Program-made: the position numbers and the translations under genes
In this document: positions 8,276 to 47,023 of the stretch, piece after piece
How positions within the stretch are numbered: the first letter of the stretch is position 1
Layout of the letters: the number at the start of each line of letters is the position of its first letter
NCBI GenBank assembly: GCA_027459705.1
Contig: DAIDHM010000077.1
Location: 1-56,798, forward strand
Direction: 5' to 3'
Length of the DNA: 56,798 nucleotides
DNA from: Ktedonobacteria bacterium
GTDB taxonomy: Bacteria > Chloroflexota > Ktedonobacteria > Ktedonobacterales > JACDGC01
The notes under the pieces: generated by a model
What the model was told of the DNA's origin: nothing
What the model saw: only the letters and a program-made list of their open reading frames with translations
Databases searched by the model: none

Positions 8276-8458
8276 CACGCATTGCCTCCACCAGGATATC
8301 CATCTTGCTCCGCCGCGTTCTAGCTGTGGTCGCGTGTCATAACGATGTTGACGTGATAGATTGTGCCTGAGATGGCGCTCCGCGTCAAGAGCGTACGAGA
8401 TGACCACACAGAGAATCGGTCACGGCGCCTGCCCAACAGACGCCCGGGAGGTAGACAC

Positions 8459-8956
8459 ATGCGTATTGCTATCCTGACCATCAGCACCAGTGCCGCACGC
8501 GGCGAACGTCTGTCGGATGCGAGCGGCGATGCCATTGCCGACTATGTCGCGACGCACCCTGGTGATGTCGTGGCCGCGCGCGAGCTCGTCGCTGACGACC
8601 GCGCCGCGATTGCCGCGCGTCTCAGCGCCTGGGCTGATGCCGACATCGCCGACCTGATCCTGACAACTGGCGGCACGGGCTTCGCCCCCACGGATGTCAC
8701 GCCCGAGGCGACCATGAGTATCCTGGATCGCCAGACGCCCGGTCTGGCCGAAGCCATGCGCGTCGAGACCGCCCGCCAGACACCCCTGGCCTGGCTCAGT
8801 CGGAGCGTCGCGGGGATCCGCCGCCATACCTTGATCGTCAATTTGCCAGGCAGTCCCAGGGCGGTCCGCGAGTGCCTGGCCGTATTAGAGCCGATCTTAC
8901 CGCATGCCGTCGCGATCCTGACCGAGGCGATCCGCCAGCATCCCGCTCAGGAGTGA
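8459..8956 (+). CDS. Molybdenum cofactor biosynthesis protein, MogA/MoaB family
   Basis: The 165-residue length and motifs match the MogA/MoaB family, which binds molybdopterin and adenylylates it before metal insertion. The conserved block LTTGGTGFAPTDVTPEAT (about residues 69-86) is the molybdopterin/ATP-binding signature, normally GGTGxxxRDxTPEA. The usual Arg-Asp is Thr-Asp here. A second conserved region, NLPGSPRAVRECLAVL, lies near the C-terminus. The start ATG at 8459 has GGGAGG seven bases upstream; the longer reading from 8363 has no such site. It is divergent from the membrane-protein gene and overlaps folC tail-to-tail by 10 bp. MogA and MoaB cannot be separated by eye. No other molybdenum genes are in view. 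Confidence 0.88.
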   Translation: MRIAILTISTSAARGERLSDASGDAIADYVATHPGDVVAARELVADDRAAIAARLSAWADADIADLILTTGGTGFAPTDVTPEATMSILDRQTPGLAEAMRVETARQTPLAWLSRSVAGIRRHTLIVNLPGSPRAVRECLAVLEPILPHAVAILTEAIRQHPAQE

Positions 8957-15922: not shown

Positions 15923-16101
15923 CATAGCTCCCAGGGGATGGTCATCCTGACACTGGAGGACGCGACGCATCCAACTTCGAGCTACCCGCCTACGAGGAGA
16001 TGTGGATGAGCAATGGCTAAGGCGGCGGGGATCGGCGAGGGTGCGTGCCGACTGGCGGACGCTGAGCACCACGCGACGCATACCCATGCCTGTGAAGATC
16101 C

Positions 16102-16131
16102 TTGTGGGCTACAGCGGTCGTGTGCTATGCT
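16102..16131 (+). promoter_or_regulatory. Candidate promoter of the TIR fusion gene
   Basis: TTGTGG (16102-16107), an 18-bp spacer and TATGCT (16126-16131), the latter preceded by TGC, form a plausible promoter about 50 bp upstream of the ATG at 16184. The rest of the stretch from the nadD start to this gene shows no other feature. Confidence 0.4.
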
Positions 16132-16183
16132 GTGGCTGAGAGAGCGTGTGTGTCGCGAGCGCGCGCGGCTGAGGAGTCGGGAG

Positions 16184-18388
16184 ATGAGCACACCACCACG
16201 GATTTTTGTCAGTCACAGCCACTGGGATGCCGCGATCTGCCGTCGCCTGGTGCAGTATCTGCGGACGACGCTGGGCATTCCGGTCTTCTATGATGAGAGT
16301 GAATTGCATGGCGGTGATGAGTGGTTGCAGCGCATTCAGCACGAGGTCGTGGGGGCCACCGCCTTCATCGTCGTGCTCTCGCGGCATAGCGTCGACGCCG
16401 CCGCTGTCTGGGTGCGCCAGGAGACTAACCTGGCCCTCTCGCTGGCGATCGAGGCCGAGAAGACCGGCCAGCGCCGTCCCATCATTCCCATCCGCGTCGA
16501 CCCCGATCTCGCGATGCCAGCGATCCTGCAATTCGCGCCCTTGCTGACGTTGCGACAGATCGTCGATTTCTTCGAGAGCATGCCGGATGACCGCCTGGCG
16601 GATGTCGCGCGTGTGGCGCGCGGCGAGGCCAGCGATCAGGCGCTACCGGCCGCCGCGCCAGCGCCAGCGCAGGCGCAGGCCTACGTCGATGCGCGCGACC
16701 TGGCGCGCCAGACGCACGCGGCGGTCGAGCGCCAACAGTGGGCGCTGGGGATGACGCTGGGCGCGCGCGCGGTGCAGATGCCCGGCAACGCCGACGATGC
16801 CACGCTCTGGGGCGATTATGCCCAAGCGCTGATTGGTTGGGGTGAGGCCGACGAGGGGCTACGCGCGCTGCGTGAGGCGTTGCGCCGCAATCCCAAGCGG
16901 ACCGACTACTGGCAGATGCAGGCGCAACTCTTGCGGTCGCGCGGCGATGTGGCCGACGCGTCGGCGGCCTGGGATGAGGCCTTCCACACGACGGTCGCAA
17001 CCGACCTCCGCCTCGCCATCCTGCGCGAGCATCTGGCGACCGTCCGGGATGATCCCGCCCAGCAGCGCCAGGTCCGCGTGCTGATCGGGCTGGCGCTGGA
17101 ACTGGCCCCGGGCGATGCCTGGTGGCTGGGCCAGCGAGTCGCGCTGGAGATGGCGCCGATCCAGACGCGCTATGATGCCGCGCTGACCGCTCAGGACTGG
17201 AGCGCGGCGCTGGACGCCTGCGCTACGGCACTGCGCATCGTCCCCAACGACGCCTCCTGGCAAGAGCGCCAGCGGACGGTGACGGCCCGCCGGAGCGCGG
17301 CCGCCGCCGCGGAGCAGGCTCGCCTCCTCGATGACCTGCGCCAGCGCTACGATGCCGCATTGGCGGCCCAGAACTGGAGCGCGGCGCAGGGCAGCGTCAC
17401 CGAAGCGCAACGGCTGGTGGGGCCCGCCGACGCGCAGTGGGCCGCGCGCCAGACGCGCATCGCCAGCGCCCGCGACGAGGCTGAGCGCCGCGCTCGCGAT
17501 GAGGCAGAGCGCCAGCGTCGCGCCCAGCTCTGGCTGGGTGTGGAGCGTGCCGCTGGCATCGCGCTGTCGGAGCGGTATAAGGATCTGGGCTTCGTCCCGG
17601 CGCTCACCGGCGCTGGTCGCGCGGTCATCACGCCGCCGCTGGCGACCATTCCTGCCGGCCCCTTCCTGATGGGCAGCGACAACCAGCGCGACTCCCAGGC
17701 ACGCGTCAACGAGGTCCTCCATGAGGTAACGCTCGGCGCGTACCAGATCGCGCTCTTCCCGGTGACCGTGGCGGAATGGGTCTGCGCGTTGCGCGCGGGC
17801 AAGGTCAAGCAGCCGCCAGACAAAAGCCCATGGGGGATTGACATTGCCTGGAAGACCCAACTTACGAGGCTGGATCATCCGATCGTCAATGTCTCGTGGC
17901 CAGACGCGCAGGCGTATCTGGCCTGGCTGCGTGAGGCGACGGGCGACAACGGCTGGCGGCTGCCGACCGAGGCGGAATGGGAGAAGGCGGCGCGCTGGGA
18001 TGCGGCGACCAAAACGGCGCGGATCTATCCCTGGGGCGACAGTTGGGACCAGACGAAGGCTAATACCCTCGAGGGCGGACCCAAGACCACGACGCCGGTG
18101 GGCACGTACGACGAGCGCGGCGACGCCAGCCCCTACGGCTGCCATGACCTGGCGGGCAACGTCTGGGAGTGGACAAGCAGCCTCTACTTCGACGAAGCCT
18201 ACCAGGCCGACAACCGGCGCGAGGACAGCACGAACATATCAGGCAGTCGTGTGCTGCGTGGCGGCTCGTGGAGGCTCGATTCCTTGTACGCGCGCGCGGC
18301 GTATCGCGACATGGACGGTCCTCACGGCCACGACGGCGGCTTCGTTGGGATTCGCCTCGCGCGCGTTCCCGTCCCTGGTTCAGGCTAA
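16184..18388 (+). CDS. TIR domain - helical repeat - FGE-sulfatase-like fusion protein
   Basis: This 734-residue protein joins three parts. Residues 1-150 are a TIR domain: RIFVSHSHWDAAICRRL, then VFYDESELHGGDEW, then WVRQE with Glu80 in the position of the catalytic glutamate of NAD-cleaving TIRs. Residues about 165-470 are helical, TPR-like and contain a duplicated unit (RYDAALTAQDWSAA and RYDAALAAQNWSAA). Residues about 485-728 are a formylglycine-generating-enzyme-like domain (IPAGPFLMGSD, WRLPTEAEWEKAAR, AGNVWEWTSS, RVLRGGSWRLDS). The two active-site cysteines of true FGE are replaced (RGGSWRLDSLYARAAYR), so this is probably a ligand-binding C-type-lectin-like fold. The likely role is an NADase-type effector with a sensor at its C-terminus. 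I chose the ATG at 16184 for its GAGGAG site. Confidence 0.88.
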   Translation: MSTPPRIFVSHSHWDAAICRRLVQYLRTTLGIPVFYDESELHGGDEWLQRIQHEVVGATAFIVVLSRHSVDAAAVWVRQETNLALSLAIEAEKTGQRRPIIPIRVDPDLAMPAILQFAPLLTLRQIVDFFESMPDDRLADVARVARGEASDQALPAAAPAPAQAQAYVDARDLARQTHAAVERQQWALGMTLGARAVQMPGNADDATLWGDYAQALIGWGEADEGLRALREALRRNPKRTDYWQMQAQLLRSRGDVADASAAWDEAFHTTVATDLRLAILREHLATVRDDPAQQRQVRVLIGLALELAPGDAWWLGQRVALEMAPIQTRYDAALTAQDWSAALDACATALRIVPNDASWQERQRTVTARRSAAAAAEQARLLDDLRQRYDAALAAQNWSAAQGSVTEAQRLVGPADAQWAARQTRIASARDEAERRARDEAERQRRAQLWLGVERAAGIALSERYKDLGFVPALTGAGRAVITPPLATIPAGPFLMGSDNQRDSQARVNEVLHEVTLGAYQIALFPVTVAEWVCALRAGKVKQPPDKSPWGIDIAWKTQLTRLDHPIVNVSWPDAQAYLAWLREATGDNGWRLPTEAEWEKAARWDAATKTARIYPWGDSWDQTKANTLEGGPKTTTPVGTYDERGDASPYGCHDLAGNVWEWTSSLYFDEAYQADNRREDSTNISGSRVLRGGSWRLDSLYARAAYRDMDGPHGHDGGFVGIRLARVPVPGSG

Positions 18389-19993: not shown

Positions 19994-21250
19994 TCAGTTT
20001 CCCAGGAATCGCCGCGTGAAGGTCGCGATCAGATTCAACTCAATGAAGAGCCCGATGATCGCTTCGAGCGCGGCGAGCACCACCACCGGATCATGCGCCG
20101 TGACGTTCGGTCCCAGACCAGGGAAGAACCCGCGACCATGGAATGACGTGACGCTGTAGACCAAGGCATCGACACATCCCGTCCCGGTGAAATGTCCGCT
20201 CAGGGTCAGGTACAGCGCGGCGAAGCCGCATATGATGACCAGGTACCAGGCGAAGGTCCGCCGTAAGCGTTCGCCATAACCCGAGACCGTCTCGAGTAAC
20301 CACAATCCGGTCCCCTGCAATATATGGCGCGCGAGGAATTGGCGGCGGCGTTCGATCTGTTGCTCGCGGAAGCGAGCCCGGGAGGCCGCTTCACTGAGGC
20401 CCTGAGCACGCAGCACCAACCAGAGGCCATGGTACGCATGCGATGCTTCAACCATCTGTTTCAGCCGACCTGACCGCGTTGTTTGCTCGTCGATTAATTC
20501 CTCATCGCCGAGCAGCAAGGCGGGCGAGAGCGGCACGCGCGTTAACGCGACGCCGTTCCACTCCACATCGCAGAGTCGCAGATGGCGTTGACTGATCTTG
20601 GGGTTAAAGATCACCTCAGCGTCGGTGAGATCGGTCTCGCTGCTGAGGCGCGCACCGCGCAGATCCGCGCCATAGAGTTGCGCCCTGACCAGGATGGTGC
20701 CGCCCAGGCGAGCACGCCGCAAGATGGCATCGGTGCAGACCGCATCGCTCAGATCCGCATCGCGCAGATCGGCCTCTTGTAAGTTGGTATGGATGAACTT
20801 GGCGAATGATGCGATGCAGCCACGCGCCCGGATGTCCACCATCGTCGCATCGGTGAAGTTTGATTGCGTGAGGTTGGCGCCCGCGAGCGTCGCGCCCGTG
20901 AAGTCGGCGTTTTGGCACCGCGCATCCTGTAGTTGCGCGTCACTGAGATCAGCGCGACCAAAACGGGCAAATTGAAAACTTGTATTGAGCGCGCGGATCC
21001 CATTGAGACGCGCTTCGAAGAAGAGCGCATTGGCCAGGTTCAGATTATTGAAGATCGCGCCGCGCAGATCGGGCCGTTGCAGCCCAGACGCGAGTTGCTC
21101 ATCACCCGACCAGTGATACGTGCTGTAGATCCAGTGGATTTCATCGAGCGAGAGGATCGTCACCTGATCGAACAAGGGTCGGTGCTGGTCATTATTTTCC
21201 TGGGCGGCTCGTTTGAGTTCAGCCTGCCGCGCATCGCTCACACTTGTCAT
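19994..21250 (-). CDS. Pentapeptide-repeat protein fused to a two-helix channel-like domain
   Basis: Residues about 60-215 of this 418-residue protein are pentapeptide repeats of the A(D/N)LxxA type, for example LSDAQLQDARCQNADFTGAT, which fold as a right-handed quadrilateral helix. A basic helical stretch follows (AASRARFREQQIERRRQFLA). The C-terminus has two transmembrane helices (FAWYLVIICGFAALYLTLSG and ALEAIIGLFIELNLIATF) around a pore-loop-like segment, YSVTSFHGRGFFPGLGPN. This matches the two-helix ion channel domain often attached to pentapeptide proteins, but the potassium-filter TVGYG is not present. Ion conduction and selectivity are unproven. The ATG at 21250 has only a weak ribosome site; a TTG at 21361 is possible. 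Confidence 0.75.
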   Translation of the reverse strand: MTSVSDARQAELKRAAQENNDQHRPLFDQVTILSLDEIHWIYSTYHWSGDEQLASGLQRPDLRGAIFNNLNLANALFFEARLNGIRALNTSFQFARFGRADLSDAQLQDARCQNADFTGATLAGANLTQSNFTDATMVDIRARGCIASFAKFIHTNLQEADLRDADLSDAVCTDAILRRARLGGTILVRAQLYGADLRGARLSSETDLTDAEVIFNPKISQRHLRLCDVEWNGVALTRVPLSPALLLGDEELIDEQTTRSGRLKQMVEASHAYHGLWLVLRAQGLSEAASRARFREQQIERRRQFLARHILQGTGLWLLETVSGYGERLRRTFAWYLVIICGFAALYLTLSGHFTGTGCVDALVYSVTSFHGRGFFPGLGPNVTAHDPVVVLAALEAIIGLFIELNLIATFTRRFLGN

Positions 21251-21670
21251 CGTCGTGACCCGCGTGCCTGACAACTGCCTGTTCTGCTGAGAGGCGTCTT
21301 CATCGATCCTCACACATCCTATTCCAGAACTACCAGCAAACCACCGCATTGCGCTCGTCAACGCGACGCATCAATGCTCGTTGACGACAGACTGGAATCC
21401 ACGCGCGCACTGTCAGCGTAATAACCCGATCACCGACCGCATAGAGTCGATGAAAGCGAACATTACGCCCAGAGGCTCCTAATATCCATACGCTCCGGCG
21501 AACGGAGATCTCTCATTGTTTCCTCATGAACTTGTCAGTACAGGTGTGGCGCACGCCGTGTCACCTGGTTGCGTGATCCGCAACCAATACCAGGCGCCCC
21601 TGGACGTCCGTTGCGCGACAGTCCAGGAGCGCCTGATGCGCGGAGTGTACGGCGGAGCGCGGCGCGGCCG
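21251..21670. other. Non-coding stretch with tandem hairpins
   Basis: This 420-bp gap between two minus-strand genes has no convincing ORF. Two strong hairpins (21567-21585 and 21591-21635) lie just downstream of the PH-like membrane gene. Confidence 0.45.
21567..21635. repeat. Two adjacent hairpins downstream of a membrane-protein gene
   Basis: GGTTGCG-N5-CGCAACC (21567-21585) is a perfect 7-bp stem. CAGGCGC-c-CCTGGAC, a 15-base loop, GTCCAGG-a-GCGCCTG (21591-21635) is a 14-bp stem with one mismatch. They could end or stabilise the minus-strand transcript. Neither has a T-tract. Confidence 0.5.
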
Positions 21671-27773: not shown

Positions 27774-29150
27774 ATGGGGATTGGGTTGACCAATGAACAG
27801 GTCATGGCCATGGCGCCAGATGCCGCCTCGGCCAATGCCGGCAAAAAACTGGCAATCCCGCGTACGTGGCAGCACGTAGGTTGCAGCGATGCCGCGCTCT
27901 GGGGCGAGTGCCAGGGCAGCGCGCTGTATCAGGTGCGCGTGGATCTCTCGAATTATGGGGTCGCTTGCAGTTGTCCCAGCCACAAATTTCCCTGTAAACA
28001 CGGATTGGGGTTGTTGTTGCTGGCCGTGCAATCACCGGAGGCTGTGCCGCCCGCCGAGCCGCCGGATTGGGTTGCCTCCTGGTTGGCTAAACGAGCGGCA
28101 TCGCAGGAAAAGAAGCAAGAGCAGCTCGCCAAACCGGCGAAAGAAACAGCCAACCCGGCGCAGCAGGCCAAACGCGCCGCCCAAAAGGCCACGCGGGTTG
28201 ATCAAGGCCTCAACACCCTGGAGCTATGGCTTCGCGATCTCGTCCGTACTGGTCTGGCGTCGGTGGAAAGCGAATCGGCGCAGATCTGGGAACAACAAGC
28301 CAAACGCCTGGTAGATGCCCAGGCGCCTGGTGTCGCGGCACTGGTCCGCCAGATGGCTGGCATACCTGGCGCGTCGCCAGATTGGCCCCGCCGCCTGCTC
28401 GACCACATGGGGCGAATTGCCTTACTCATTCAGGCCTACCGGCAATTCGCAACAGCGGATGGGCCACTCCTGCTCGATCTCCCCATGCAAGACGAGATCC
28501 AGCGACGCATTGGTTGGACTCTCTCGCAAGAGGACATCACCGCCCGTGGTGAGATGGTCGATGATGACTGGTTGCTGTTGGGACAGGTGGTCGAACAAGA
28601 TGAAGCTCACTCCAATATGCTCATGCAACGCACCTGGCTTTATGGGGTACATTCCCAACGTCCGGCGCTGATCCTGCAATACTCCGTCATGAACGCGCCC
28701 TATCCCGAGGTGATCGTCCCGGGCGGACGGCTGCTGGCGGCCTTGCGCTTCTGGCCCGGCGCCGAGTTGTTGCGGGCGCGCATTGAAATACGCCATCCAG
28801 CGAGTCCACTCCCAGGTGATGCTCCGATCCTGTTGCCGCTCCCCGGCGCGCCTGATATCGCCACCTTCCTGCAGGCTATGGCAGAGAGGCTGGCTCGTCA
28901 ACCGTGGCAAACACAGAATCTCTGTCTGCTGCGATCGGTTGTGCCACTCTGCGAGGACAATGGCGCGCGCTGGTGGCTACAGGATAGCCATGGCGATGCC
29001 TTGCCGCTAGCGGGTGATAATCATTGGAAATTGCTGGCGTTGACAGGCGGAAATCCGGTAGCGATCGCCGCCGAATGGGACGGCGAACGATTGCGAGTTA
29101 TGGGGGTACAACATGAGGGGCGTTACACGCTCCTGGGAGGCAACGAATAG
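27774..29150 (+). CDS. SWIM zinc finger protein (first gene of the SWIM/DUF5691/MoxR/DUF5682/VWA operon)
   Basis: This 458-residue protein has a SWIM zinc finger near its N-terminus: CSCPSHKFPCKH, with Cys65, Cys67, Cys74 and His76 as ligands (CxCx6CxH). SWIM fingers bind DNA or proteins. A Lys/Ala/Gln-rich linker (about 108-140) separates it from a large C-terminal region with no recognised motif. A similar protein (YehQ) is part of the E. coli yehLMPQ cluster, from general knowledge. The ATG at 27774 is preceded by GAGAGGA. The stop codon is followed two bases later by the DUF5691 start. It is probably the nucleic-acid- or target-binding partner of the system. Confidence 0.9.
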   Translation: MGIGLTNEQVMAMAPDAASANAGKKLAIPRTWQHVGCSDAALWGECQGSALYQVRVDLSNYGVACSCPSHKFPCKHGLGLLLLAVQSPEAVPPAEPPDWVASWLAKRAASQEKKQEQLAKPAKETANPAQQAKRAAQKATRVDQGLNTLELWLRDLVRTGLASVESESAQIWEQQAKRLVDAQAPGVAALVRQMAGIPGASPDWPRRLLDHMGRIALLIQAYRQFATADGPLLLDLPMQDEIQRRIGWTLSQEDITARGEMVDDDWLLLGQVVEQDEAHSNMLMQRTWLYGVHSQRPALILQYSVMNAPYPEVIVPGGRLLAALRFWPGAELLRARIEIRHPASPLPGDAPILLPLPGAPDIATFLQAMAERLARQPWQTQNLCLLRSVVPLCEDNGARWWLQDSHGDALPLAGDNHWKLLALTGGNPVAIAAEWDGERLRVMGVQHEGRYTLLGGNE

Positions 29151-29152
29151 CG

Positions 29153-30724
29153 ATGGATGCATTGACAAAGGCGGCTTTGCTCGGCACAATCCGCACCAGA
29201 GAAACACCGTTCGATGCAGATTCCCCCATCACTGCGCTCGTCACCGCTGTGGCGGACGGTGATCGTGAATGGGCGTTGTTGCTGCAGGCTGGCGCGCGCG
29301 CGGTATACCAAGCAGCCGGGATGATCCCGCACCGCCGCACTGCGCCGTTGCCAGACCCCGCCCCGGACGATGATCAGCCGCTATGTTCGCCCCAGGCTGC
29401 CGCTTTGCTCGATCTCCTGGCGCGGGAGGGGCAAGGACCGCTCACGTATGATGAATTACTGCCTGAAGCCTTGCAGCGCCTGATTGATCAGGGGCTAAGG
29501 GTACCGCCAGAGATCCTGCCGAACTTGTTGAGCAAACGCCTGGATGTGGGGCTGCGCCCGCTCGTGCGCCAGGTCATCGGGGCGCGTGGGCGTTGGCTGG
29601 CGCAATTCAATACCGCCTGGAAATGGGCCACACCAACACCGCTTGCCGATGCCGCGCTTCTCCCTGACGCTGATACCATTTGGCTCGAAGGCACTCCCGC
29701 CCAGCGAAACGAGTTGCTGCAACGTATGCGCGCCGTGGATGCCGTGCGTGCGCGGGAATGGATTGCCGATGCATGGAAAAAAGAGCGTGCTGAGACGCGC
29801 GCTCAGATGATCCAGGCTCTGGCGATCGACCTGACGCTCGCGGATGAGCCAATGCTGGAGCTGGCGCTGGATGACCGCGTCCAGGCGGTTCAGCAACAGG
29901 CTGCCCATTTGCTCCTGCAACTTCCGGAGTCAGCCCTGTCGCAACGCATGATCGCCCGCGCCGATGCTTTGCTAGACTGGCATGATCAGGCCCTCACCAT
30001 CACCTTACCCCACACCATCGAGCCGGACGCGAGTTGGAAGCGCGATGCGCTTCCCGACAAGCCAGCACAAGGCGTGAGCCATGTTGATTGGTTGCTACAG
30101 ACCACAATCATGCGGGTGCCACTGTCCCATTGGGATACGCGTTTTGGCGTTGCGCCGGCGGCACTGGTTGCCGCCGCCGCCCAAACTGACCGCGCCACGG
30201 CGCTCATAAGTGGCTGGACGCAGGCCGTGTGGATGGAACCGCGCGCCGACTGGATTGCGGCCTTGTGGGCATGGTGGCAAGCAGCACAAGCGGAAGCGGC
30301 ATCCGTGGGCATGCTGCGCACGATGCTACAGCATTTGCCGAGCGATCTAGCGGAACAGTACATCCAGGCCAACATGCAGCAAACCGAAACCACGCAAGAT
30401 GTCCGCTGGGTCGCGCTGCTGGACGACTTGCCCCGCCCCTGGAGCGCGTCGTTCGCTCAGACCTACCTTGCTGTTGTATTCGACTGGCTTGAACGTGGCG
30501 AGGGATTGACGGTACCGCGGAGGCAGATGTTGGAAACGCTCAACGTGGCGGCGCTGGCCTTGCCTCACGCTGCCTTTGATCTCGCCCTGGCGGCAAGTCC
30601 GCTCCCAGACCTGTCTACTGTGCCTGCTGCTCAGCAATGGGAAGCCGTACGCTGGCAGCGCAACTGGGACGTATTTACGCAGACGATCAGCCTGCGCCAT
30701 CGCATCCAGAAAGAGATTCACTGA
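29153..30724 (+). CDS. DUF5691 family protein
   Basis: This 523-residue protein is mostly alpha-helical, with repeated Leu/Ala-rich helices in its second half (for example LELALDDRVQAVQQQAAHLL). That suggests a HEAT- or armadillo-like scaffold. Position and length match the DUF5691 proteins that accompany SWIM, MoxR, DUF5682 and VWA genes in other bacteria. I place it in the family from context and general resemblance. The N-terminus (MDALTKAALLGTIRTRETPF) looks like the family's opening. No catalytic motif is visible. It begins two bases after the SWIM gene and ends one base before the ATPase gene. Confidence 0.75.
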   Translation: MDALTKAALLGTIRTRETPFDADSPITALVTAVADGDREWALLLQAGARAVYQAAGMIPHRRTAPLPDPAPDDDQPLCSPQAAALLDLLAREGQGPLTYDELLPEALQRLIDQGLRVPPEILPNLLSKRLDVGLRPLVRQVIGARGRWLAQFNTAWKWATPTPLADAALLPDADTIWLEGTPAQRNELLQRMRAVDAVRAREWIADAWKKERAETRAQMIQALAIDLTLADEPMLELALDDRVQAVQQQAAHLLLQLPESALSQRMIARADALLDWHDQALTITLPHTIEPDASWKRDALPDKPAQGVSHVDWLLQTTIMRVPLSHWDTRFGVAPAALVAAAAQTDRATALISGWTQAVWMEPRADWIAALWAWWQAAQAEAASVGMLRTMLQHLPSDLAEQYIQANMQQTETTQDVRWVALLDDLPRPWSASFAQTYLAVVFDWLERGEGLTVPRRQMLETLNVAALALPHAAFDLALAASPLPDLSTVPAAQQWEAVRWQRNWDVFTQTISLRHRIQKEIH

Positions 30725-30725
30725 T

Positions 30726-31853
30726 ATGCCCAAGCCTGCACCAGGGGGCGGAGCATCCGCCGAAGATCAGACGTTAGATGCCATCCTGCGCCAGCACGCC
30801 GAGGTACAGTATGCCGAGGAATTGGACGTACTGCTTAAAAATGATACACACCCACGTCCACCCAATTGGGTCCTCTCGCCCTGGGCGGTCAAGCGGTATC
30901 TCCTGGGTGGAAAGCTGGCGAATGGCTTCGAGATTGCGCCGAAATACATCGGCAATGAACGCTTGATCGAGATCGCAGTGGCGACGCTGGCCACCGATCG
31001 TGCGCTCTTACTCTACGGTCTGCCGGGTACCGCAAAATCCTGGACCAGCGAGCATCTGGCCGCCGCCATCACCGGGGATTCAACCTTGCTGATCCAGGGC
31101 ACCGCCGGGACGGATGAAAGCGCCATCCGGTATGGGTGGAATTACGCCAGATTGCTGGTTGACGGACCATCACCGGCGGCATTGGTCGTCAGCCCGATGA
31201 TGCGCGCGATGCAAGACGGCAAGTTGGCGCGTATCGAGGAATTGACCCGCATTCCCGCTGAAGTACAGGATACCTTGATCACCATCCTATCGGAAAAGAC
31301 GTTACCGGTTCCAGAACTGGGGCTCGAAACACAGGCACGCAAGGGTTTCAACGTCATCGCCACCGCCAATAATCGTGACAAAGGCGTCAACGAGCTTTCC
31401 AGCGCCCTCATGCGCCGTTTCAACACCGTCATCTTGCCGCTACCGGCCACGATTGACGAAGAGATTGACATCGTGGACCGCCGCGTAGCCAGCCTGGGCC
31501 AGGCACTGGCATTGCCAGCGGAAAAGCCCGCGCTGGAAGAGATCCGACGCGTGGTGACGATTTTTCGCGAACTGCGCGATGGCATGACCGTGGATGGCAA
31601 GACCAAGCTCAAATCGCCCACAGGGACCCTCTCCACAGCGGAGGCAATCTCAGTCATGAACAGCGGTCTTGCGATGGCTGGTTATTATGGCGACGGCGTA
31701 TTGCGAGCGAGCGATCTCGCCGCCGGATTAACCGGAGCGATCGTGAAAGATCCCGTACAAGATCGGGTCGTCTGGCTGGAATATCTGCAAACTGTGGTCA
31801 AAGATCGCGAAGGATGGAAAGATCTCTACCGTGCCTGCCACGAGGTGTTGTGA
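30726..31853 (+). CDS. MoxR-like AAA+ ATPase (YehL-type)
   Basis: This 375-residue ATPase has Walker A GLPGTAKS (residues 98-105, Lys104), sensor 1 in NVIATANNRDKG, and an arginine-finger segment ALMRRFN. The Walker B region reads LARIEELTRIPAEVQD, so the usual Asp-Glu pair appears as Glu-Glu. MoxR proteins act as chaperone-like ATPases that load metal or assemble complexes together with a VWA protein, and such a gene lies two genes downstream. I use the ATG at 30726, one base after the DUF5691 stop; the open frame extends further upstream only inside that gene. The order ATPase, DUF5682, VWA equals E. coli yehL, yehM, yehP. Confidence 0.93.
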   Translation: MPKPAPGGGASAEDQTLDAILRQHAEVQYAEELDVLLKNDTHPRPPNWVLSPWAVKRYLLGGKLANGFEIAPKYIGNERLIEIAVATLATDRALLLYGLPGTAKSWTSEHLAAAITGDSTLLIQGTAGTDESAIRYGWNYARLLVDGPSPAALVVSPMMRAMQDGKLARIEELTRIPAEVQDTLITILSEKTLPVPELGLETQARKGFNVIATANNRDKGVNELSSALMRRFNTVILPLPATIDEEIDIVDRRVASLGQALALPAEKPALEEIRRVVTIFRELRDGMTVDGKTKLKSPTGTLSTAEAISVMNSGLAMAGYYGDGVLRASDLAAGLTGAIVKDPVQDRVVWLEYLQTVVKDREGWKDLYRACHEVL

Positions 31854-31856
31854 CGC

Positions 31857-34100
31857 ATGAGCGTACACATATGTGGCATTCGGCACCATGGCCCCGGCTC
31901 CGCCAGAGCACTGAGCGCGGCATTAGCGGCACTACAGCCAGATTGTCTGCTCATCGAAGGCCCACCCGATGCGCAGGCGATCGCGCCATTGATGATGGAG
32001 GCCACCATGCAACCTCCGGTGGCGCTGTTGATCTACCTGCCCGACGCGCCGCACCGCGCTGTCTATTACCCCTTCACGGACTTCTCGCCCGAGTGGCAAG
32101 CGCTACGTTATGGATTCAGCCGGGAGATTCCCACGCGCTTTTTTGATCTGCCCCAGAGCATCCAGTTTGCCTGTGCACCAGCAGAGACGGCACAACAGAC
32201 CGCTGCAATGCCAGCCACGCCCGTGCATCCGTCGCCGGACCCCTTTGCCCTGTTGGCGGAAGCGGCAGGCTTCCCTGATCATGAGGCCTGGTGGGAACTG
32301 CAGATTGAGCAACGACAAGACACCACCGAGGTCTTCACCGCCGTGCACGAAGCGATGCAGGCGTTGCGCGCAGGTGCCCCACCACCCCAGGGCAATGAGG
32401 CACTACGCGAAGCCTCGATGCGCCAACACATTCGCGCCGCGATGAGCGAAAATTTTCAGACCATTGCCGTTGTCTGTGGCGCCTGGCACACACCAGCCTT
32501 GCAATTGGAAGACGCGGCGACGCCATCGGCCAAAGCGGACGCGGCGCTGCTCAAGGGTTTGCCGCGGGTCACCGTCACCGCAACATGGATACCATGGACC
32601 AATTCCCGCCTGGCGCTACGCAGCGGCTATGGCGCTGGCATCACATCTCCTGGTTGGTATGCGCATCTGTGGCAGGCGCCGGATCGCGTGACCATCCGCT
32701 GGATGGCGCGGGTCGCCCAGGTGTTACGGGCGGAGGGACTGGATGCCTCAGCGGCGAACGTGATCGAGGCGGTACGTCTGGCCGAAGCCCTGGCCGCCTT
32801 GCGTGGTCTGCCGATGCCAGGGTTGACCGAGATGCATGAGGCAACCCAGACCGTCCTCTGTCGTGGCGAAGAGACGCCAATGCGGCTGATTCGCACGCGC
32901 ATCGAGATTGGCGAAGCGCTCGGCGCTGTCCCACCAGCAACACCGGCGGTACCGTTGTTGCGCGATCTCACGGCCCAGCAACGCCGCTTGCGTTTGGAGA
33001 TGACCGCGGAGATCAAGACACTCGACCTCGATCAACGCAAAGTAATCGATCTCACGCGCAGCTATCTCTTGCATCGTCTGAGAATCCTGCAGATCGAGTG
33101 GGGCAAGCCATATCAGGCGGCGAAATCTGCCCAGGGCACGTTCCACGAGATCTGGCAGTTGCAATGGCAGGTGGAATTTGCCGTAGCGATCATCGAGGCA
33201 AATGTTTGGGGGAATACGGTCGAAGCGGCGGCGACGGCCTACGCGCGCCATCTCGCCAGCACCACGCGCACCTTGCCGCAGTTGACCGCTCTGCTACATC
33301 AAGTCATGCTAGCGGCCCTGCCGACGGCGCTGGATGATGTGCTGGCCCAGGTCCAGGATCAAGCGGCGGTTGCCGCCGACGTGCGACACCTGATGCTGGC
33401 ATTACCACCTCTCACTGAGGCCGCTCGCTATACAGATGTGCGGCAAACAAAATCGGCCTTGCTGCTCCCTGTGATTTCGGCACTCTTCGAGCGCGTCCTC
33501 ATTGGTCTGCTGCCAGCCTGCCAATCGCTCGATGATGACGCCGCGGCGACCATGACGGAGAGCATTGCGGCGGTGCAAACGAGCCTGTTGCGATTGGAGG
33601 ATCCACAATTTACCGCCGCCTGGCAAGGTATTCTGGCGCGCGTCATCGACGACGAAGGCATTCATGGACTGGTACGCGGTGTGTGCTGCCGCCTCCTGTT
33701 GGAAGCGGGCATCCTCACGAGCGTCGAATTAGAGCGGCACGCCCGCCACGCGCTGTCCTCGGCCACGCCTGCCACACAGGCTGCCGCGTGGATCGAAGGC
33801 GTCTTGCGTGGCAACGGCGAAGTGGTACTGGCGCAAGATGGTCTGTGGCAGGCTCTGGATACCTGGGTCTGCGACCTCAGCGCCGACCATTTTGTGGGGG
33901 CGTTGCCGCTCTTACGTCGCGCGTTCGCGCAATTTGATGCCAGTGTGCGCCAGCGTATGGGGACGAAGGTGAAGCATCTATCAACCGCCGGGACTGCTCC
34001 ACCCCTGCCCGGCACAGCGTCAGATCATGTGCCGATCGATGTCGCACGCGCTGATCTGACCCTGCCCATACTGGCTCGCTTGTTAGGAGTTTCACAATGA
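31857..34100 (+). CDS. DUF5682 family protein (YehM-type)
   Basis: This 747-residue protein opens with HICGIRHHGPGSARALSAAL, followed by LLIEGPPDAQ at about residue 32, both hallmarks of DUF5682. A further conserved block, AVVCGAWHTPAL, lies near residue 205-215. The combination of N-terminal His pair, Glu-Gly-Pro and GxWH recalls the EreA/ChaN/TraB (TIKI-like) hydrolase superfamily, so an enzymatic N-terminal domain is possible. This is my inference, not an established activity. The remaining 500 residues are helical. It lies between the MoxR ATPase (3-bp gap) and the VWA gene (4-bp ATGA overlap). Confidence 0.88.
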   Translation: MSVHICGIRHHGPGSARALSAALAALQPDCLLIEGPPDAQAIAPLMMEATMQPPVALLIYLPDAPHRAVYYPFTDFSPEWQALRYGFSREIPTRFFDLPQSIQFACAPAETAQQTAAMPATPVHPSPDPFALLAEAAGFPDHEAWWELQIEQRQDTTEVFTAVHEAMQALRAGAPPPQGNEALREASMRQHIRAAMSENFQTIAVVCGAWHTPALQLEDAATPSAKADAALLKGLPRVTVTATWIPWTNSRLALRSGYGAGITSPGWYAHLWQAPDRVTIRWMARVAQVLRAEGLDASAANVIEAVRLAEALAALRGLPMPGLTEMHEATQTVLCRGEETPMRLIRTRIEIGEALGAVPPATPAVPLLRDLTAQQRRLRLEMTAEIKTLDLDQRKVIDLTRSYLLHRLRILQIEWGKPYQAAKSAQGTFHEIWQLQWQVEFAVAIIEANVWGNTVEAAATAYARHLASTTRTLPQLTALLHQVMLAALPTALDDVLAQVQDQAAVAADVRHLMLALPPLTEAARYTDVRQTKSALLLPVISALFERVLIGLLPACQSLDDDAAATMTESIAAVQTSLLRLEDPQFTAAWQGILARVIDDEGIHGLVRGVCCRLLLEAGILTSVELERHARHALSSATPATQAAAWIEGVLRGNGEVVLAQDGLWQALDTWVCDLSADHFVGALPLLRRAFAQFDASVRQRMGTKVKHLSTAGTAPPLPGTASDHVPIDVARADLTLPILARLLGVSQ

Positions 34101-35275
34101 TCGAAGAATCCGAACGGTTGCGTCGCTGGCGTTTGGTGTTGGGTGGTTCGGCGCAGCAGGCGATGGATCAGACCCTGACAGGGCCGGATCTGGGGATGGA
34201 TTACACGCTGGAAGCGCTCTATGGCAGTGATGGGGGAAGTGGCACCTCCCGGAAGAAATCCGGCCTGGGCGCATCGTCGCCGAAAGTGGCGCGCTGGCTT
34301 GGCGACATCCGCACCTATTTCCCCTCCTCGGTGGTACGCGTCATGCAAAGGGATGCGCTGGAACGGCTCCATCTGACCCAGTTGCTGCTGGAGCCGGAGA
34401 TGCTCGAGGCGGTGGAGGCCGACGTACACCTGGTGGCGACGCTAATGTCACTGAGCCACGCCATCCCTGAAAAGACCAAAGACACTGCCCGCGCAGTCGT
34501 TCGGCGCGTCGTGGAAGATCTGGAACGTCGCCTGGCGAATCCATTGATACAAGCGATACGTGGCAGCCTGCGCCGCGCCGTGCGCACTCGCCGCCCGTTG
34601 CCCGGTGACATCAACTGGGATCGCACGATACGGGCAAATCTGCAGCACTATCAACCCGATCGCGGTACGATTATTGTCGAACACCTGATCGGTCATGGAA
34701 GGAAACAATCGGCGTTGCGCGACATCGTGTTGTGTGTCGACCAGAGTGGCTCGATGGGGTCCTCAGTGGTGTATTCCGGTATCTTTGGCGCTGTCATGGC
34801 CTCCATGCGTGCCGTGAATACCCGTATGGTCGTGTTCGATACAGCAGTCGTGGATCTCACCGATGACTTGCACGACCCGGTCGATCTGCTCTTTGGTGTG
34901 CAACTCGGTGGCGGGACGGATATCAATCAAGCGCTAGGGTATTGCGAGCAGATCATTACCCGCCCGGCGCAGACGGTGCTGGTACTCATCACTGATCTGT
35001 ATGAGGGCGGTAATGCTGCCGAGATGCTGCGCCGCGCCGCCACGCTGACCCAGAGCGGTGTGCAGATGATCTGCTTGCTGGCGCTGAACGATCAGGGCGC
35101 GCCGAGTTATGATCATCACCACGCCGCGGCATTCGCAACGTTGGGTATCCCAGCGTTTGCCTGTACACCCGATCTTTTTCCCGAGTTGATGGCTGCGGCC
35201 ATCGCGAAGCAGGATCTCGGACTGTGGGCCGCGCAGCATGACATCGTGACGGCGCGGGCCGATGGTGACCAATGA
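34097..35275 (+). CDS. VWA domain protein (YehP-type partner of the MoxR ATPase)
   Basis: The C-terminal half of this 392-residue protein is a von Willebrand A domain with an intact metal site: Asp215, Ser217 and Ser219 in VDQSGSMGS, the Thr in QLGGGTDINQAL, and the later Asp in VLITDLYEGGN. The N-terminal half is basic and helical and contains a Pro/Arg-rich stretch (RRPLPGDINWDRTIRANLQ). VWA proteins paired with MoxR ATPases serve as metal-dependent adaptors that hold substrates. The start overlaps the DUF5682 stop by four bases. It is the last gene of the operon. Confidence 0.92.
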   Translation: MIEESERLRRWRLVLGGSAQQAMDQTLTGPDLGMDYTLEALYGSDGGSGTSRKKSGLGASSPKVARWLGDIRTYFPSSVVRVMQRDALERLHLTQLLLEPEMLEAVEADVHLVATLMSLSHAIPEKTKDTARAVVRRVVEDLERRLANPLIQAIRGSLRRAVRTRRPLPGDINWDRTIRANLQHYQPDRGTIIVEHLIGHGRKQSALRDIVLCVDQSGSMGSSVVYSGIFGAVMASMRAVNTRMVVFDTAVVDLTDDLHDPVDLLFGVQLGGGTDINQALGYCEQIITRPAQTVLVLITDLYEGGNAAEMLRRAATLTQSGVQMICLLALNDQGAPSYDHHHAAAFATLGIPAFACTPDLFPELMAAAIAKQDLGLWAAQHDIVTARADGDQ

Positions 35276-35346: not shown

Positions 35347-37239
35347 TCAGCGATACGCTTCGGCCTGAAGGCTGAAAAGTTCGGCATACCGACCAGCGCG
35401 CGCCAGCAGTTCTTCGTGCGTACCGATCTCCTGGACTTGTCCATGTTCCAGCACAATGATGCGATTGGCCAGGCGGACGGTGCTGAAGCGATGCGAGATG
35501 AAGACGGCCGATTTCCCCGCGGTCAACTCGCGGAAGTGCGTAAAGACCTCATATTCCGCCTGCGGATCCAGTGAACTGGTAGGCTCGTCGAGGATCAGCA
35601 ACTGAGCGTCGCGCATGAAGGCGCGTGCCAGCGCGATCTTCTGCCACTCGCCGCCAGAAAGTTGCTGGCCGCCAGAGAACCATTTGCCCAGCATCGTCGC
35701 GTAGCCTTCGGGCAACTTCTCAATCACCGCGCTGGCCCCGCTCTTCGCCGCGGCGCCGACGACTTGCTGATGATCCTCAATCTGGTCGATGCGACCAATT
35801 CCGATGTTCTGTGCCGCCGTCATATAGTACGTGACATAATCTTGAAAAATGACCCCAACGCGCGCGCGCAATGTGGGCAGGTCATATTCGCGGATATCGT
35901 GGCCATTGATCAAGATCATGCCTGCATCGGGATCATAGAGACGTGTCAGCAATTTGACAATCGTCGTCTTGCCTGCGCCGTTACCGCCTACCAGCGCCAC
36001 CGCCTCGCCAGCTTCGATCGTAAAACTGACATCGCGAATCGCCGGTCCCTCATGTTCACGGCCTGGATAGGTGAACGTCACATGGCGGAACTCCACCGCC
36101 AACCCTTCGCCCTCCGGGACGCGCCCGGTCGCTGGACTGGCAATGTGTGGGGTATATTCCAGGAACTCGAAGAGCGTGTTGATATAGAGGTTATTTTCGT
36201 AGGTATCGGAAACCGTCCCCAACAACGTTTGGAAGCTCGATCCCAGTTGCAACGCCGCCTGGGTATACAGGGTCAAGCCGCCGATCTGGATGGCCCCCGC
36301 CACTGCGCGTAGCGCGACATACACGTAGATGCCGCCATTCATCACGAGGCTGATCATGCCGAGAACAAAAGAAGTCAGGTAGCGCGGGACGAGGATACGC
36401 CTGGCCTGATCGTAAAAACCAAGTGCCAACGTGCGATAACGCGCGATAAAGAAATCCCCCAGGGTGAAGAGTTTGATCTCTTTGTTGTACGTGTCCGTCG
36501 TCATCAGCTGACCAAAATAGGTCATCGCGCGTCGCTCGGGCGATTGGCGACGCATCACCTGATAGCCCCACCAGCCATAGCGGATGTTAGCATAGAACGC
36601 GGGTATCGGCGCGATCAGTGCCAGCAGCGCCAGCCACCACGCCAGGTGGACTAAAATCAACACCATCGAGATGAAGGTGACGATCGTCCGACCTACCCCG
36701 AACGTCTGGGTCACCATCCCCGTTGGCCGCGAGGACGCCTCGTTCTGCGCGCGCTGCAAGGTATCATAGAAGCGCGCATCTTCGAAGAATGCCAGATCCA
36801 GGGTGTTGGCTTTCTCCATGATCAACATCTGGACCGTCACCGACATCCGCTCCTGCAATAATTGCTGGATGATATTCGAGAGTGTTGTCAACAGACTCCC
36901 CGCGCCTTGAATGGCGAATTGCAGGATCACATAGTCGATGACGAGGCTGGTCGTGTCCCCGCGACCTTGCACTTTGACCGCAATGACGACGGCGTTAATG
37001 AGCTGGGCCACCGCATAAGCGGTCGCGGCGGGGATGATGCCCTGGAGCACGTACAGCACCGCCAGGCTGATCGTGAAGAACGGCTGGGCTTTCATCACCA
37101 GTTGCAGAATGCGCGGCAGGCTGCGGAACGCGATGATGATTTTCTCGGCCGTCAGGCGATCTTCCGCATCGGTCGCGGTGCCACCCAGGCGGTCAGCACG
37201 GGGTACTTTGGTAGACTGGGATGCGTGAGGTGGATGCAT
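35347..37239 (-). CDS. ABC exporter half-transporter (membrane and ATPase domains fused)
   Basis: This 630-residue protein has an N-terminal exporter-type membrane domain (about residues 35-365) and an ATPase domain with Walker A GGNGAGKTT, signature LSGGEWQKIALARAF, Walker B LLILDEPTSSLD and switch His in FISHRFS. All sites are canonical, so it can work as a homodimer. It resembles lipid, peptide or drug exporters. The ATG at 37239 is the only good internal start; AGAGGA lies 13 bases upstream, which is rather far. An extended -10 box and a hairpin lie in the 90-bp gap after the LuxR gene, so it may have its own promoter within the long minus-strand run. Confidence 0.93.
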   Translation of the reverse strand: MHPPHASQSTKVPRADRLGGTATDAEDRLTAEKIIIAFRSLPRILQLVMKAQPFFTISLAVLYVLQGIIPAATAYAVAQLINAVVIAVKVQGRGDTTSLVIDYVILQFAIQGAGSLLTTLSNIIQQLLQERMSVTVQMLIMEKANTLDLAFFEDARFYDTLQRAQNEASSRPTGMVTQTFGVGRTIVTFISMVLILVHLAWWLALLALIAPIPAFYANIRYGWWGYQVMRRQSPERRAMTYFGQLMTTDTYNKEIKLFTLGDFFIARYRTLALGFYDQARRILVPRYLTSFVLGMISLVMNGGIYVYVALRAVAGAIQIGGLTLYTQAALQLGSSFQTLLGTVSDTYENNLYINTLFEFLEYTPHIASPATGRVPEGEGLAVEFRHVTFTYPGREHEGPAIRDVSFTIEAGEAVALVGGNGAGKTTIVKLLTRLYDPDAGMILINGHDIREYDLPTLRARVGVIFQDYVTYYMTAAQNIGIGRIDQIEDHQQVVGAAAKSGASAVIEKLPEGYATMLGKWFSGGQQLSGGEWQKIALARAFMRDAQLLILDEPTSSLDPQAEYEVFTHFRELTAGKSAVFISHRFSTVRLANRIIVLEHGQVQEIGTHEELLARAGRYAELFSLQAEAYR

Positions 37240-37301
37240 GGTATATTGGTCATCCTCTTCCGCGCTCGCTTCAACTCGGGAAGAAATCCGCGCGATATTC
37301 G

Positions 37302-37327
37302 CTGGGAGCGTTTGGCGGTACTCCCAG
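37302..37327 (-). promoter_or_regulatory. Hairpin in the leader of the ABC exporter gene
   Basis: CTGGGAG, a 12-base loop and CTCCCAG form a 7-bp stem just downstream of the -10 box (37330-37338). The half-sites CTGGGA/TCCCAG also occur in the XRE-TPR leader at 11914-11930, with a different spacing. Confidence 0.4.
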
Positions 37328-37329
37328 GT

Positions 37330-37338
37330 ATTATAGCA
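37330..37338 (-). promoter_or_regulatory. Extended -10 promoter of the ABC exporter gene
   Basis: The minus strand reads TGCTATAAT, overlapping the stop codon of the LuxR-type gene. Confidence 0.45.
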
Positions 37339-38026
37339 AGATAAGGCCGAGGCGCGCGCCCAGCGTGACTGCCTCTGTGCGACTGGCGGCATTGAGCTTC
37401 GTCATAATCGATGCCACATGGAATTTGACGGTATGGTCTGAGATGCCCAGATCGCGCGCGATGGTTTTGTTGCCGACCCCTTCGGCCAACAACTGCAACA
37501 CCTCGATCTCGCGCGCTGTCAGGGATGGCAGCGATGGTTGGGGTGGCTGAGAGCGTGCGATGGGAGGCGGTGGCAGCAACGCACGCAGCGTCTCGCGCGG
37601 GAGGACCGTCAGGCCGGCCGCGACGGCCTGCACCGTGGCGGTAATGGCATCAGCGGTGGCGTCACGGGGGAGGACGGCGGCTGTGCCCTCGCGTAACAAG
37701 CTCGTTATCCATGCACCGTGTGCATTCTCAACCAGGACGACCAGCGCTGGACCTCCAGGACCGATGATCCGCTCCCACTCGCCCAGGAATGGGTCGAGGG
37801 GAGCCGATTCCGGGACCAGCCAACGGGTCCCGTCGATCGTGGAATCCTCCCTATAGCCATCCTGGTCGGCCAGGACGACGTCAGGATGAAGGGCGGCGAT
37901 GCTTGCCGCAACGGTGTCCGTCCGCGCCTGTTGCCCAATAACCTCCATCGCGGGATCGGCAGCCAGAACGGCTGCTAACCCCGCGCGGATGACGGGCGAC
38001 GCGGCGAGAATCATGACGCGGATCAT
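37331..38026 (-). CDS. LuxR/NarL-type regulator with a degenerate receiver domain
   Basis: This 231-residue protein has a NarL-type C-terminal helix-turn-helix (about residues 165-231: LTAREIEVLQLLAEGVGNKT, then ISDHTVKFHVASIMTKLNA). The N-terminal 120 residues are laid out like a receiver domain, but key residues are gone. The acidic pair after the first strand is Ala8-Ala9, the conserved Thr/Ser is missing from VVLVENAHG, and the conserved Lys appears as Pro-Arg (VLPRDA). Asp54 remains where the phosphorylated Asp would be. It is therefore probably controlled without phosphorylation. An insert of about 30 residues lies after Asp54. The start overlaps the end of the upstream protease gene by four bases (ATGA). 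Confidence 0.88.
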   Translation of the reverse strand: MIRVMILAASPVIRAGLAAVLAADPAMEVIGQQARTDTVAASIAALHPDVVLADQDGYREDSTIDGTRWLVPESAPLDPFLGEWERIIGPGGPALVVLVENAHGAWITSLLREGTAAVLPRDATADAITATVQAVAAGLTVLPRETLRALLPPPPIARSQPPQPSLPSLTAREIEVLQLLAEGVGNKTIARDLGISDHTVKFHVASIMTKLNAASRTEAVTLGARLGLILL

Positions 38027-46057: not shown

Positions 46058-47023
46058 ATGCAGATAGCCAATACGGTATCTCAGGTGCAAAAGACCACCG
46101 CAGCGGTGCGCGCCAACGTAGGAAATGTCATCGTCGGGAAGAGCGAGGTCATCGATCTTTTGATGGTAGCATTATTGAGTGATGGCCACGTATTACTTGA
46201 GGACGTCCCGGGAATGGGGAAGACGGTGATGGCAAAGGCCCTCGCCCGTTCGCTCAATCTCGCCTTTGCACGCATCCAGGGTACGCCCGACCTGTTGCCA
46301 ACAGACATCACTGGAGTCAGCTACTTTGACCAGCGCCGCAATGATTTCGTCTTCCGCCAGGGCCCCATCTTTGCTCAGGTGGTGCTCTTCGATGAGATCA
46401 ATCGCGCGACCCCACGTACGCAATCCGCCTTGTTGGAGGCGATGGCCGAACGTCAGGTGACAGTTGATCGCGAAACGCTCCAACTCGCGCGCCCCTTCTT
46501 TGTGGTTGCGACGCAGAACCCCATCGAACTGGATGGGACGTTTCCGCTTCCGGAGGCACAACTGGATCGCTTTTTCATGCGCTTGCGCGTCGGGTATCCC
46601 GACGAAGCCGAGGAAATGGCGATTCTGCGGCGTTTCAAGACTACGGAACCTTTGGCGGACCTCCAACCCATCGTCAACAGTGCGGATATCCAGTCGCTAC
46701 AAGATGCGGTGCGGCAAGTACGCTGGGAACCGGATGTGGAACGGTATCTGTTGGCAATTGTTCGTGCGACGCGCCAGCATCCTTCCGTCCAAATCGGGGC
46801 AAGTCCTCGAGCGACGCTGGCGCTCTATCGTGCCTGCGAGGCCCTGGCAGCGATTCAAGGGCGCGATTTTGTCTTGCCGGATGACGTCAAAACATTGGCG
46901 CCATTGATACTGGCCCATCGCCTCATTTTGTCCACACGGTCAAGGCTAAATAATGAATCTGGTGACCATATCGTAGCAACGATCATCAGCACACAACCAG
47001 TTCCGGTGGAACCGAACGACTGA
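46058..47023 (+). CDS. MoxR family AAA+ ATPase
   Basis: This 321-residue ATPase is a standard MoxR protein: Walker A PGMGKT (residues 51-56), Walker B VVLFDEINRA, sensor 1 VVATQNPIELDGTF with the following PLPEAQLDRFFMR, and the C-terminal lid with IGASPRATLALYRA. MoxR proteins commonly lie before DUF58/VWA and transglutaminase genes and act as chaperones. None of these follows here: the next gene is on the opposite strand, so the ATPase is an orphan. It shares little with the YehL-type ATPase at 30726-31853. A GAGGA lies about 15 bases before the ATG, which is far for a ribosome site. Confidence 0.93.
   Translation: MQIANTVSQVQKTTAAVRANVGNVIVGKSEVIDLLMVALLSDGHVLLEDVPGMGKTVMAKALARSLNLAFARIQGTPDLLPTDITGVSYFDQRRNDFVFRQGPIFAQVVLFDEINRATPRTQSALLEAMAERQVTVDRETLQLARPFFVVATQNPIELDGTFPLPEAQLDRFFMRLRVGYPDEAEEMAILRRFKTTEPLADLQPIVNSADIQSLQDAVRQVRWEPDVERYLLAIVRATRQHPSVQIGASPRATLALYRACEALAAIQGRDFVLPDDVKTLAPLILAHRLILSTRSRLNNESGDHIVATIISTQPVPVEPND

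Follow-up and report, generated by a model that had tools for sequence, protein, structure and literature searches.

In the NorQD system, a ring of the MoxR-type AAA+ ATPase works through a protein with a von Willebrand factor A (VWA) domain, whose metal ion-dependent adhesion site (MIDAS) grips the enzyme that the operon also encodes; this target is remodelled by hydrolysis of ATP (PMC9976466). Another group with such pairs, the MoxR-vWA ternary conflict systems, is defined by its third components VMAP, iSTAND, FtsH and beta-propeller (PMC7159879). YehL, one of only two MoxR ATPases in Escherichia coli K-12 (PMC3893208), is encoded in the operon yehI-(yehK)-yehL-yehM-yehP-yehQ; the literature that we searched held no functional study of this operon and no paper naming the protein families DUF5682 or DUF5691. 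Here we describe five genes of a Ktedonobacteria bacterium (Chloroflexota; assembly GCA_027459705.1), located at positions 27774-35275 of the contig DAIDHM010000077.1, whose whole length of 56,798 nucleotides is referred to as the window. They represent a second architecture of the YehL system, and their DUF5682 protein very probably starts with a domain of the TIKI fold.

Conservation and two architectures of the operon

All five genes lie on the + strand in the order SWIM-DUF5691-MoxR-DUF5682-VWA, with no other gene in between. They encode a SWIM zinc-finger protein of 458 residues (27774-29150, start codon ATG preceded by GAGAGGAT, relatives in 58 loci), a DUF5691 protein of 523 residues (29153-30724, Pfam DUF5691 2.4e-106), a MoxR AAA+ ATPase of the YehL type with 375 residues (30726-31853, AAA_5 6e-34), a DUF5682 protein of 747 residues orthologous to YehM (31857-34100, DUF5682 5.6e-253) and a CoxE-like VWA protein of 392 residues orthologous to YehP (34097-35275, VWA_CoxE 6.8e-50). 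All these products are named by strong Pfam scores, with the exception of the short SWIM motif (1.1e-5). The intergenic gaps measure 2, 1 and 3 bp in gene order, and DUF5682 and VWA share a 4-bp overlap, ATGA. The draft genome to which the window contig belongs comprises 4.6 Mb and has DUF5682 in a single copy.

For comparison, DUF5682 loci were gathered from whole genomes, GTDB contigs, plasmids, phages and E. coli, open reading frames were called and profiles of the five proteins were built. Among the resulting 75 loci, the exact five-gene order is present in 30, or about 33 once split and overlapping calls of open reading frames are counted, and it occurs in Chloroflexota, Planctomycetota, Armatimonadota, Pseudomonadota, Actinomycetota and Deinococcota. 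Its named hosts include Planctomycetes Pan216, Undibacterium, Comamonas, Bradyrhizobium, Novosphingobium, Actinocrispum, Paenarthrobacter, Deinococcus taeanensis and an Armatimonadetes metagenome-assembled genome (MAG); a locus of Candidatus Chloroheliaceae (L032, 49%) is among the close named relatives. Nineteen loci of the Lentzea type keep the first four genes together and have a VWA relative nearby on the opposite strand.

Across 301 Chloroflexota genomes, DUF5682 was found in 42 and DUF5691 (above cut-off) in 31; both are present in 29 genomes, while 4.3 would be expected (hypergeometric p = 5e-28, shared ancestry being ignored). Since the order recurs across phyla and the two families co-occur, the arrangement is not due to chance. 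Pairwise divergences of all five proteins correlate as well (r 0.78-0.94 over 34 loci, 0 of 2000 permutations), which shows joint inheritance, not contact. An earlier note on this DNA had described the gene order, strand, gaps and overlap exactly as we read them and had taken the five genes for one module, naming rarity of their joint occurrence elsewhere as what would speak against it; the recurrence of the order in the 75-locus set and the co-occurrence bear the module out. Among our data, contact between two of the parts is best supported by Hymenobacter (Bacteroidota), where a single protein of 1009 residues comprises SWIM (1-464) and DUF5691 (491-1007).

Comparison with the E. coli operon revealed both shared and exchanged parts. 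The window MoxR is 41% identical to YehL over 364 residues (E 1e-78), DUF5682 is 30% identical to YehM over 506 residues and VWA is 36% identical to YehP (E 2e-74). These three orthologs stand in the same relative order in both operons, and each operon has a SWIM protein. The E. coli SWIM gene, yehQ, is nevertheless located at the 3' end, and YehQ, despite its SWIM motif, has no significant BLAST similarity to the SWIM protein of the window. The E. coli control genome contains PF18934 but lacks DUF5691 (PF18944); instead, the operon has a large DUF4132-type protein, YehI. The parallel with E. coli drawn before therefore stands for MoxR, DUF5682 and VWA and fails for the five-gene set as a whole, which in E. 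coli lacks DUF5691, has a dissimilar SWIM protein at the other end and includes YehI in addition. Because the E. coli-type operon carries DUF4132 in place of DUF5691, we regard the window operon as a second architecture of the YehL system.

The same replacement by a DUF4132-type protein was detected in Iodobacter, Sinorhizobium, Agrobacterium vitis and Proteus, and in the first three of these it is plasmid-borne. On the two rhizobial plasmids the DUF4132-type gene is placed between DUF5682 and VWA, with a 4-bp overlap at the start of VWA; in a third variant (L090) a HEAT_2 protein occupies this position. Homology of DUF5691 and DUF4132 was not significant in hhalign (probability 0.5, E 0.13), and for this reason we call the two analogous, not homologous. 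The core thus consists of MoxR, DUF5682 and VWA together with a SWIM protein, the large helical protein varying by architecture.

Some loci contain additional sequences. A uracil-DNA glycosylase gene lies between DUF5682 and VWA in L074 (8123-8860, - strand, ung, TIGR00628 1e-75, overlapping the VWA start by 4 bp) and likewise in L072 (about 7869-8579, - strand), and a UvrA-family protein of 744 residues is inserted between MoxR and DUF5682 in L081 (6325-8559). In a Planctomycetaceae MAG (L037, 3411-8319) the intact DUF5682 is preceded upstream by a second N-terminal fragment of DUF5682, which may be the remnant of a tandem duplication. Two MoxR genes are interrupted by inteins exactly within Walker A (GTAK / C...HN / S), namely in L079 (10856-13228) and L090 (6390-8789); the latter intein matches Intein_splicing (4.4e-23) and LAGLIDADG_3 in Pfam, and the former is similar to it in sequence. 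As the two operons differ in architecture (DUF5691 type and SWIM-last/HEAT type), horizontal transfer of the intein is possible.

The N-terminal domain of DUF5682

Residues 1-260 of DUF5682 (31857-32636, + strand) are predicted to form a domain resembling the TIKI, TraB and Ere hydrolases. The prediction is based on the topology of the AlphaFold model, on hhalign comparisons with TraB and Ere and on the Pfam TraB and ChaN matches of family members. The domain follows the pattern GIRHHGPG...PDxVLIEGPP...RExxMR...VVCGAWH. In a set of 48 sequences including YehM, most of them 19-61% identical to the window protein, residues H10, E34, R184, E185, M188, G208 and H211 are invariant. The pair H10-H11 (GIRHH, 31884-31889) follows strand 1, with H10 present in 48/48 and H11 in 46/48 sequences; E34 (IEGPP, 31956-31958) ends strand 2, and H211 (GAWH, 32487-32489) comes after the helix R184-x3-M188. 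YehM thus has the same invariant residues as the window protein. One divergent member, L091, reads FPVAHHSPASALQLVRRLHQKQPKVIYIELCE, which we take to be very close to the TraB/PrgY motif.

TIKI enzymes have a site of two histidines and two glutamates, as described for VvRRSP (PMC6254334). DUF5682 shares with the superfamily (TraB/PrgY/GumN, ChaN, erythromycin esterases, VvRRSP) the GxxH after strand 1, the glutamate after strand 2, the R...M helix and the GxxH after a later strand. It differs from it in having a long C-terminal helical domain, in lacking the first glutamate (that of E-x-H) and in being encoded with an AAA+/VWA pair; we know of no other TIKI protein with such partners. In the AlphaFold model (mean predicted local distance difference test score, pLDDT, 88.7; the alignments for structure prediction were made without some rows from annotated records) strand 1 is followed directly by the histidines, strand 2 by E34 and strand 202-208 by H211. 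This order of strands and motifs is consistent with the parallel beta-sheet of the TIKI fold.

Profile comparison points in the same direction. Against the TraB/GumN alignment hhalign scored 29.6 (E 0.004), column-shuffled controls reaching 13.3+-2.1 with a maximum of 22.1, and against the erythromycin esterase (Ere) alignment it scored 24.0 (E 0.04), with controls of 14.1+-2.2 and a maximum of 21.0. Both scores exceed those of all 60 shuffled controls, and both alignments, obtained independently, place the segment RxxxM...GxxH in the same register. For comparison, TraB and Ere, the two accepted TIKI families, reached only E 0.55 when this test was applied to the pair. In a scan of 34 individual N-terminal domains with 24,736 Pfam models, more than one domain matched just three families other than DUF5682 itself: TraB_PrgY_gumN (3 members, best E 0.002), DUF5694 (2 members) and the Tiki-superfamily model ChaN (2 members, best E 0.06). 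The ChaN family (PF04187) in Chloroflexota had too few members to serve as a comparison set.

Several results weigh against this assignment. A Foldseek search of the PDB with full-length DUF5682 returned nothing at E<=0.001, and the best 50 matches listed were helical-repeat proteins, with no TIKI protein among them. A sequence search of the PDB with full and N-terminal DUF5682 profiles gave nothing significant, and the hhalign E-values (0.004 and 0.04) are individually weak. Finally, the glutamate of the VvRRSP E-x-H is replaced by I or V at position 8 in 48/48 sequences. GumN/TraB members, with their GTxH, are likewise without this glutamate, so that it does not define the whole superfamily. 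Taking both sides together, we consider the TIKI-type fold of the N-terminus very probable and hydrolase activity of the protein probable, with appreciable room for doubt.

The partner proteins

MoxR retains characteristic AAA+ motifs. Its Walker A, GLPGTAKS (31017-31040), has G, P and K in at least 71 of 72 aligned relatives, and sensor-1 N215 and the arginine-finger region are kept in essentially all 72. In the Walker B region, RIEELTR (31230-31250), R169, E171, E172 and R175 are present in 72/72; E-E replaces here the usual D-E, which gives the family signature RxEE[LIM][TS]R. Placement of this ATPase in the YehL subfamily rests on its similarity to YehL and on the gene arrangement around it, in which MoxR, DUF5682 and VWA are accompanied by SWIM. 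The VWA protein has a complete MIDAS: DxSxS (D215, S217 and S219, 34739-34753) is conserved in 71/71 relatives, T274 (34916-34918) in 70/71 and D300 (34994-34996) in all 68 that reach this position. Walker A, sensor, arginine-finger and MIDAS motifs are all intact. Pairing of the ATPase with VWA, which had been suggested before, has good support.

In the SWIM protein, all four ligands of the metal-binding motif C65-x-C67-x6-C74-x-H76 (27966-28001) are present in 57/58 aligned proteins. DUF5691 is predicted to be an all-helical solenoid. Its AlphaFold model (pLDDT 87.9) consists nearly entirely of helix, the best Foldseek matches are importin-beta, the PP2A scaffold and alphaRep (probability about 1, none at E<=0.001), and weak profile matches to alphaRep (E 4e-4) were found. 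A HEAT-like solenoid fold is probable on this basis.

Genomic neighbourhood

Upstream of the operon lies the gene for Tex (+ strand, end at 27560) and downstream a convergent ABC transporter gene (35347-37392, - strand). A scan of the window for promoters and terminators gave signals at or near the level of shuffled sequence. Elsewhere in the window, we observed a TIR domain fused to a formylglycine-generating-enzyme (sulfatase-modifying factor) domain (16013-18388, + strand), which resembles effectors of conflict or signalling systems, a pentapeptide-repeat protein of 455 residues (19994-21361, - strand) and a second MoxR-type ATPase (46058-47023, + strand, AAA_3 7e-62, bpMoxR above cut-off), which belongs to another subfamily and lies about 11 kb downstream of the operon.

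The 120 proteins flanking about 33 loci have almost nothing in common. Their functions are diverse (metabolic, transport and signalling), and their PADLOC matches are few and scattered, with no recurrent defence family (no background control was included). The sole phage match, MT835988, labelled 'unverified', is a faecal scaffold on which MoxR-DUF5682-VWA adjoins genes for an MgsA-type AAA+ protein and DUF5717; it is probably bacterial DNA, and phage carriage was rejected.

Discussion

Our tentative proposal, to which we give a little less than an even chance, is that the products of the five genes form a single ATP-driven machine of the YehL class, with DUF5682 as its predicted hydrolase, MoxR and VWA as the gate and SWIM with the solenoid as adaptor. 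DUF5682 would be the enzyme, its TIKI/TraB/Ere-fold domain with the putative site H10, E34 and H211 preceding a large helical domain. The MoxR ring, coupled through VWA and its MIDAS metal site, would remodel DUF5682 or a substrate bound to it, and the hydrolase would be opened or loaded only with ATP and partners present. SWIM and the DUF5691 solenoid together may act as the adaptor selecting the substrate, probably a protein or peptide. Hydrolytic activity, gating, adaptor role and substrate class are what we infer here, the gating by analogy with NorQD, DUF5682 being the only catalytic-looking partner. Catalysis had earlier been considered possible for DUF5682 together with SWIM and DUF5691, and the predicted active site now gives the suggestion a concrete superfamily. 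It counts against the proposal that contacts between the parts, including that of MoxR-VWA with DUF5682, are themselves a matter of inference, apart from SWIM and DUF5691, which occur fused.

Like NorQ-NorD, CbbQ-CbbO and CoxD-CoxE, the operon combines a MoxR AAA+ ATPase and a VWA protein with intact MIDAS, and these known pairs are encoded with the enzyme on which they act. It differs from them in its MoxR, which is of another subfamily with E-E instead of D-E at Walker B, in the lack of a metalloenzyme gene and in the extra SWIM and solenoid subunits. A bolder version, which we regard as doubtful, sees in the YehL class a new kind of ATP-gated hydrolase, possibly a protease, in which a MoxR ring and a VWA co-chaperone would control a TIKI-fold active site, while SWIM and a solenoid (DUF5691 or, interchangeably, DUF4132) would choose the substrate. 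Its logic would be like that of Clp or Lon, built from unrelated parts.

The known pairs also offer the alternative that survives best, although we think it rather unlikely: MoxR-VWA would insert a metal or assemble a complex, as NorQD, CbbQO and CoxDE do, and DUF5682, SWIM and DUF5691 would be client or co-chaperones without catalysis of their own. The characterised MoxR-VWA pairs that we found are of this type (PMC9976466, PMC3893208). The window VWA belongs to the CoxE-like family, and the invariant residues of DUF5682 could bind a metal or cofactor instead of catalysing. A TIKI member that binds haem, ChaN, exists. No metalloenzyme or respiratory gene, however, recurs beside the operon among the 120 flanking proteins, and as these share almost nothing, any client would have to be DUF5682 itself or be encoded elsewhere.

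A stress role of the operon is possible. A DNA-damage response machine appears improbable to us; here, SWIM and, in the Yeh form, the WGR/DUF4132 neighbours would act on damaged DNA, where MoxR-VWA-DUF5682 would remove or cleave protein. It draws on the uracil-DNA glycosylase inside the operon of two related genomes and the UvrA-family gene inside one other, and on the E. coli cluster, which starts with the WGR gene yehF, preceded by the LexA-like site CTGGATAAAATTACAG. Moreover, molR is stated to have been described as LexA-regulated, and DUF4132/WGR genes are DdrO-regulated in Deinococcus (PMC8533742). The insertions are nevertheless confined to single lineages, and a scan of upstream regions for SOS boxes found CTGTN8ACAG in none, GAACN4GTTC once (isolated) and neither the alphaproteobacterial type nor the radiation/desiccation response motif (RDRM), the looser CTGN10CAG occurring at background frequency (12 against 11.1 expected).

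About as improbable is a phage defence or conflict system, in which the ATPase-VWA part would restrain DUF5682 as a toxic hydrolase until infection: patchy distribution (42/301 Chloroflexota), plasmid copies, some of them conjugative, one copy beside a type I restriction system and the MoxR-VWA pairs of proposed conflict systems (PMC7159879) would suit it, but yehL-yehQ is covered to at least 80% in 5181/5426 E. coli genomes (~95%), at a median of one place per genome and nearly always on the chromosome, unlike typical defence genes, no relative was confirmed among 2.9 million IMG/VR viral contigs in a scan resting on one conserved peptide pattern, the five proteins score low or nil in PADLOC, and variable effector domains are missing. 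The ternary conflict systems resemble the operon in combining a MoxR-VWA pair with an additional dedicated protein. VMAP, iSTAND, FtsH and beta-propeller are nonetheless absent from it according to Pfam analysis of the five proteins and nearby genes, and the window MoxR reaches 23.9 bits with the bpMoxR model, below its 27-bit cut-off. With these components missing, ordinary flanks, a Yeh form that is core in E. coli and no relative confirmed by the peptide-pattern scan of viral contigs, the defence reading of the earlier note is not supported.

What emerges is a real, widely conserved and unstudied system, presumably one machine, which adds a second architecture to the known YehL class. New here are the assignment of DUF5682 to a superfamily and the view of two architectures. 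The two architectures, with DUF5691 or DUF4132, separate the core parts (MoxR, DUF5682 and VWA) from the likely adaptors, and with its three candidate catalytic residues DUF5682 allows the operon to be probed directly by mutagenesis in a laboratory strain. If the TIKI-type assignment is true, it would provide the first testable chemistry for this machine.

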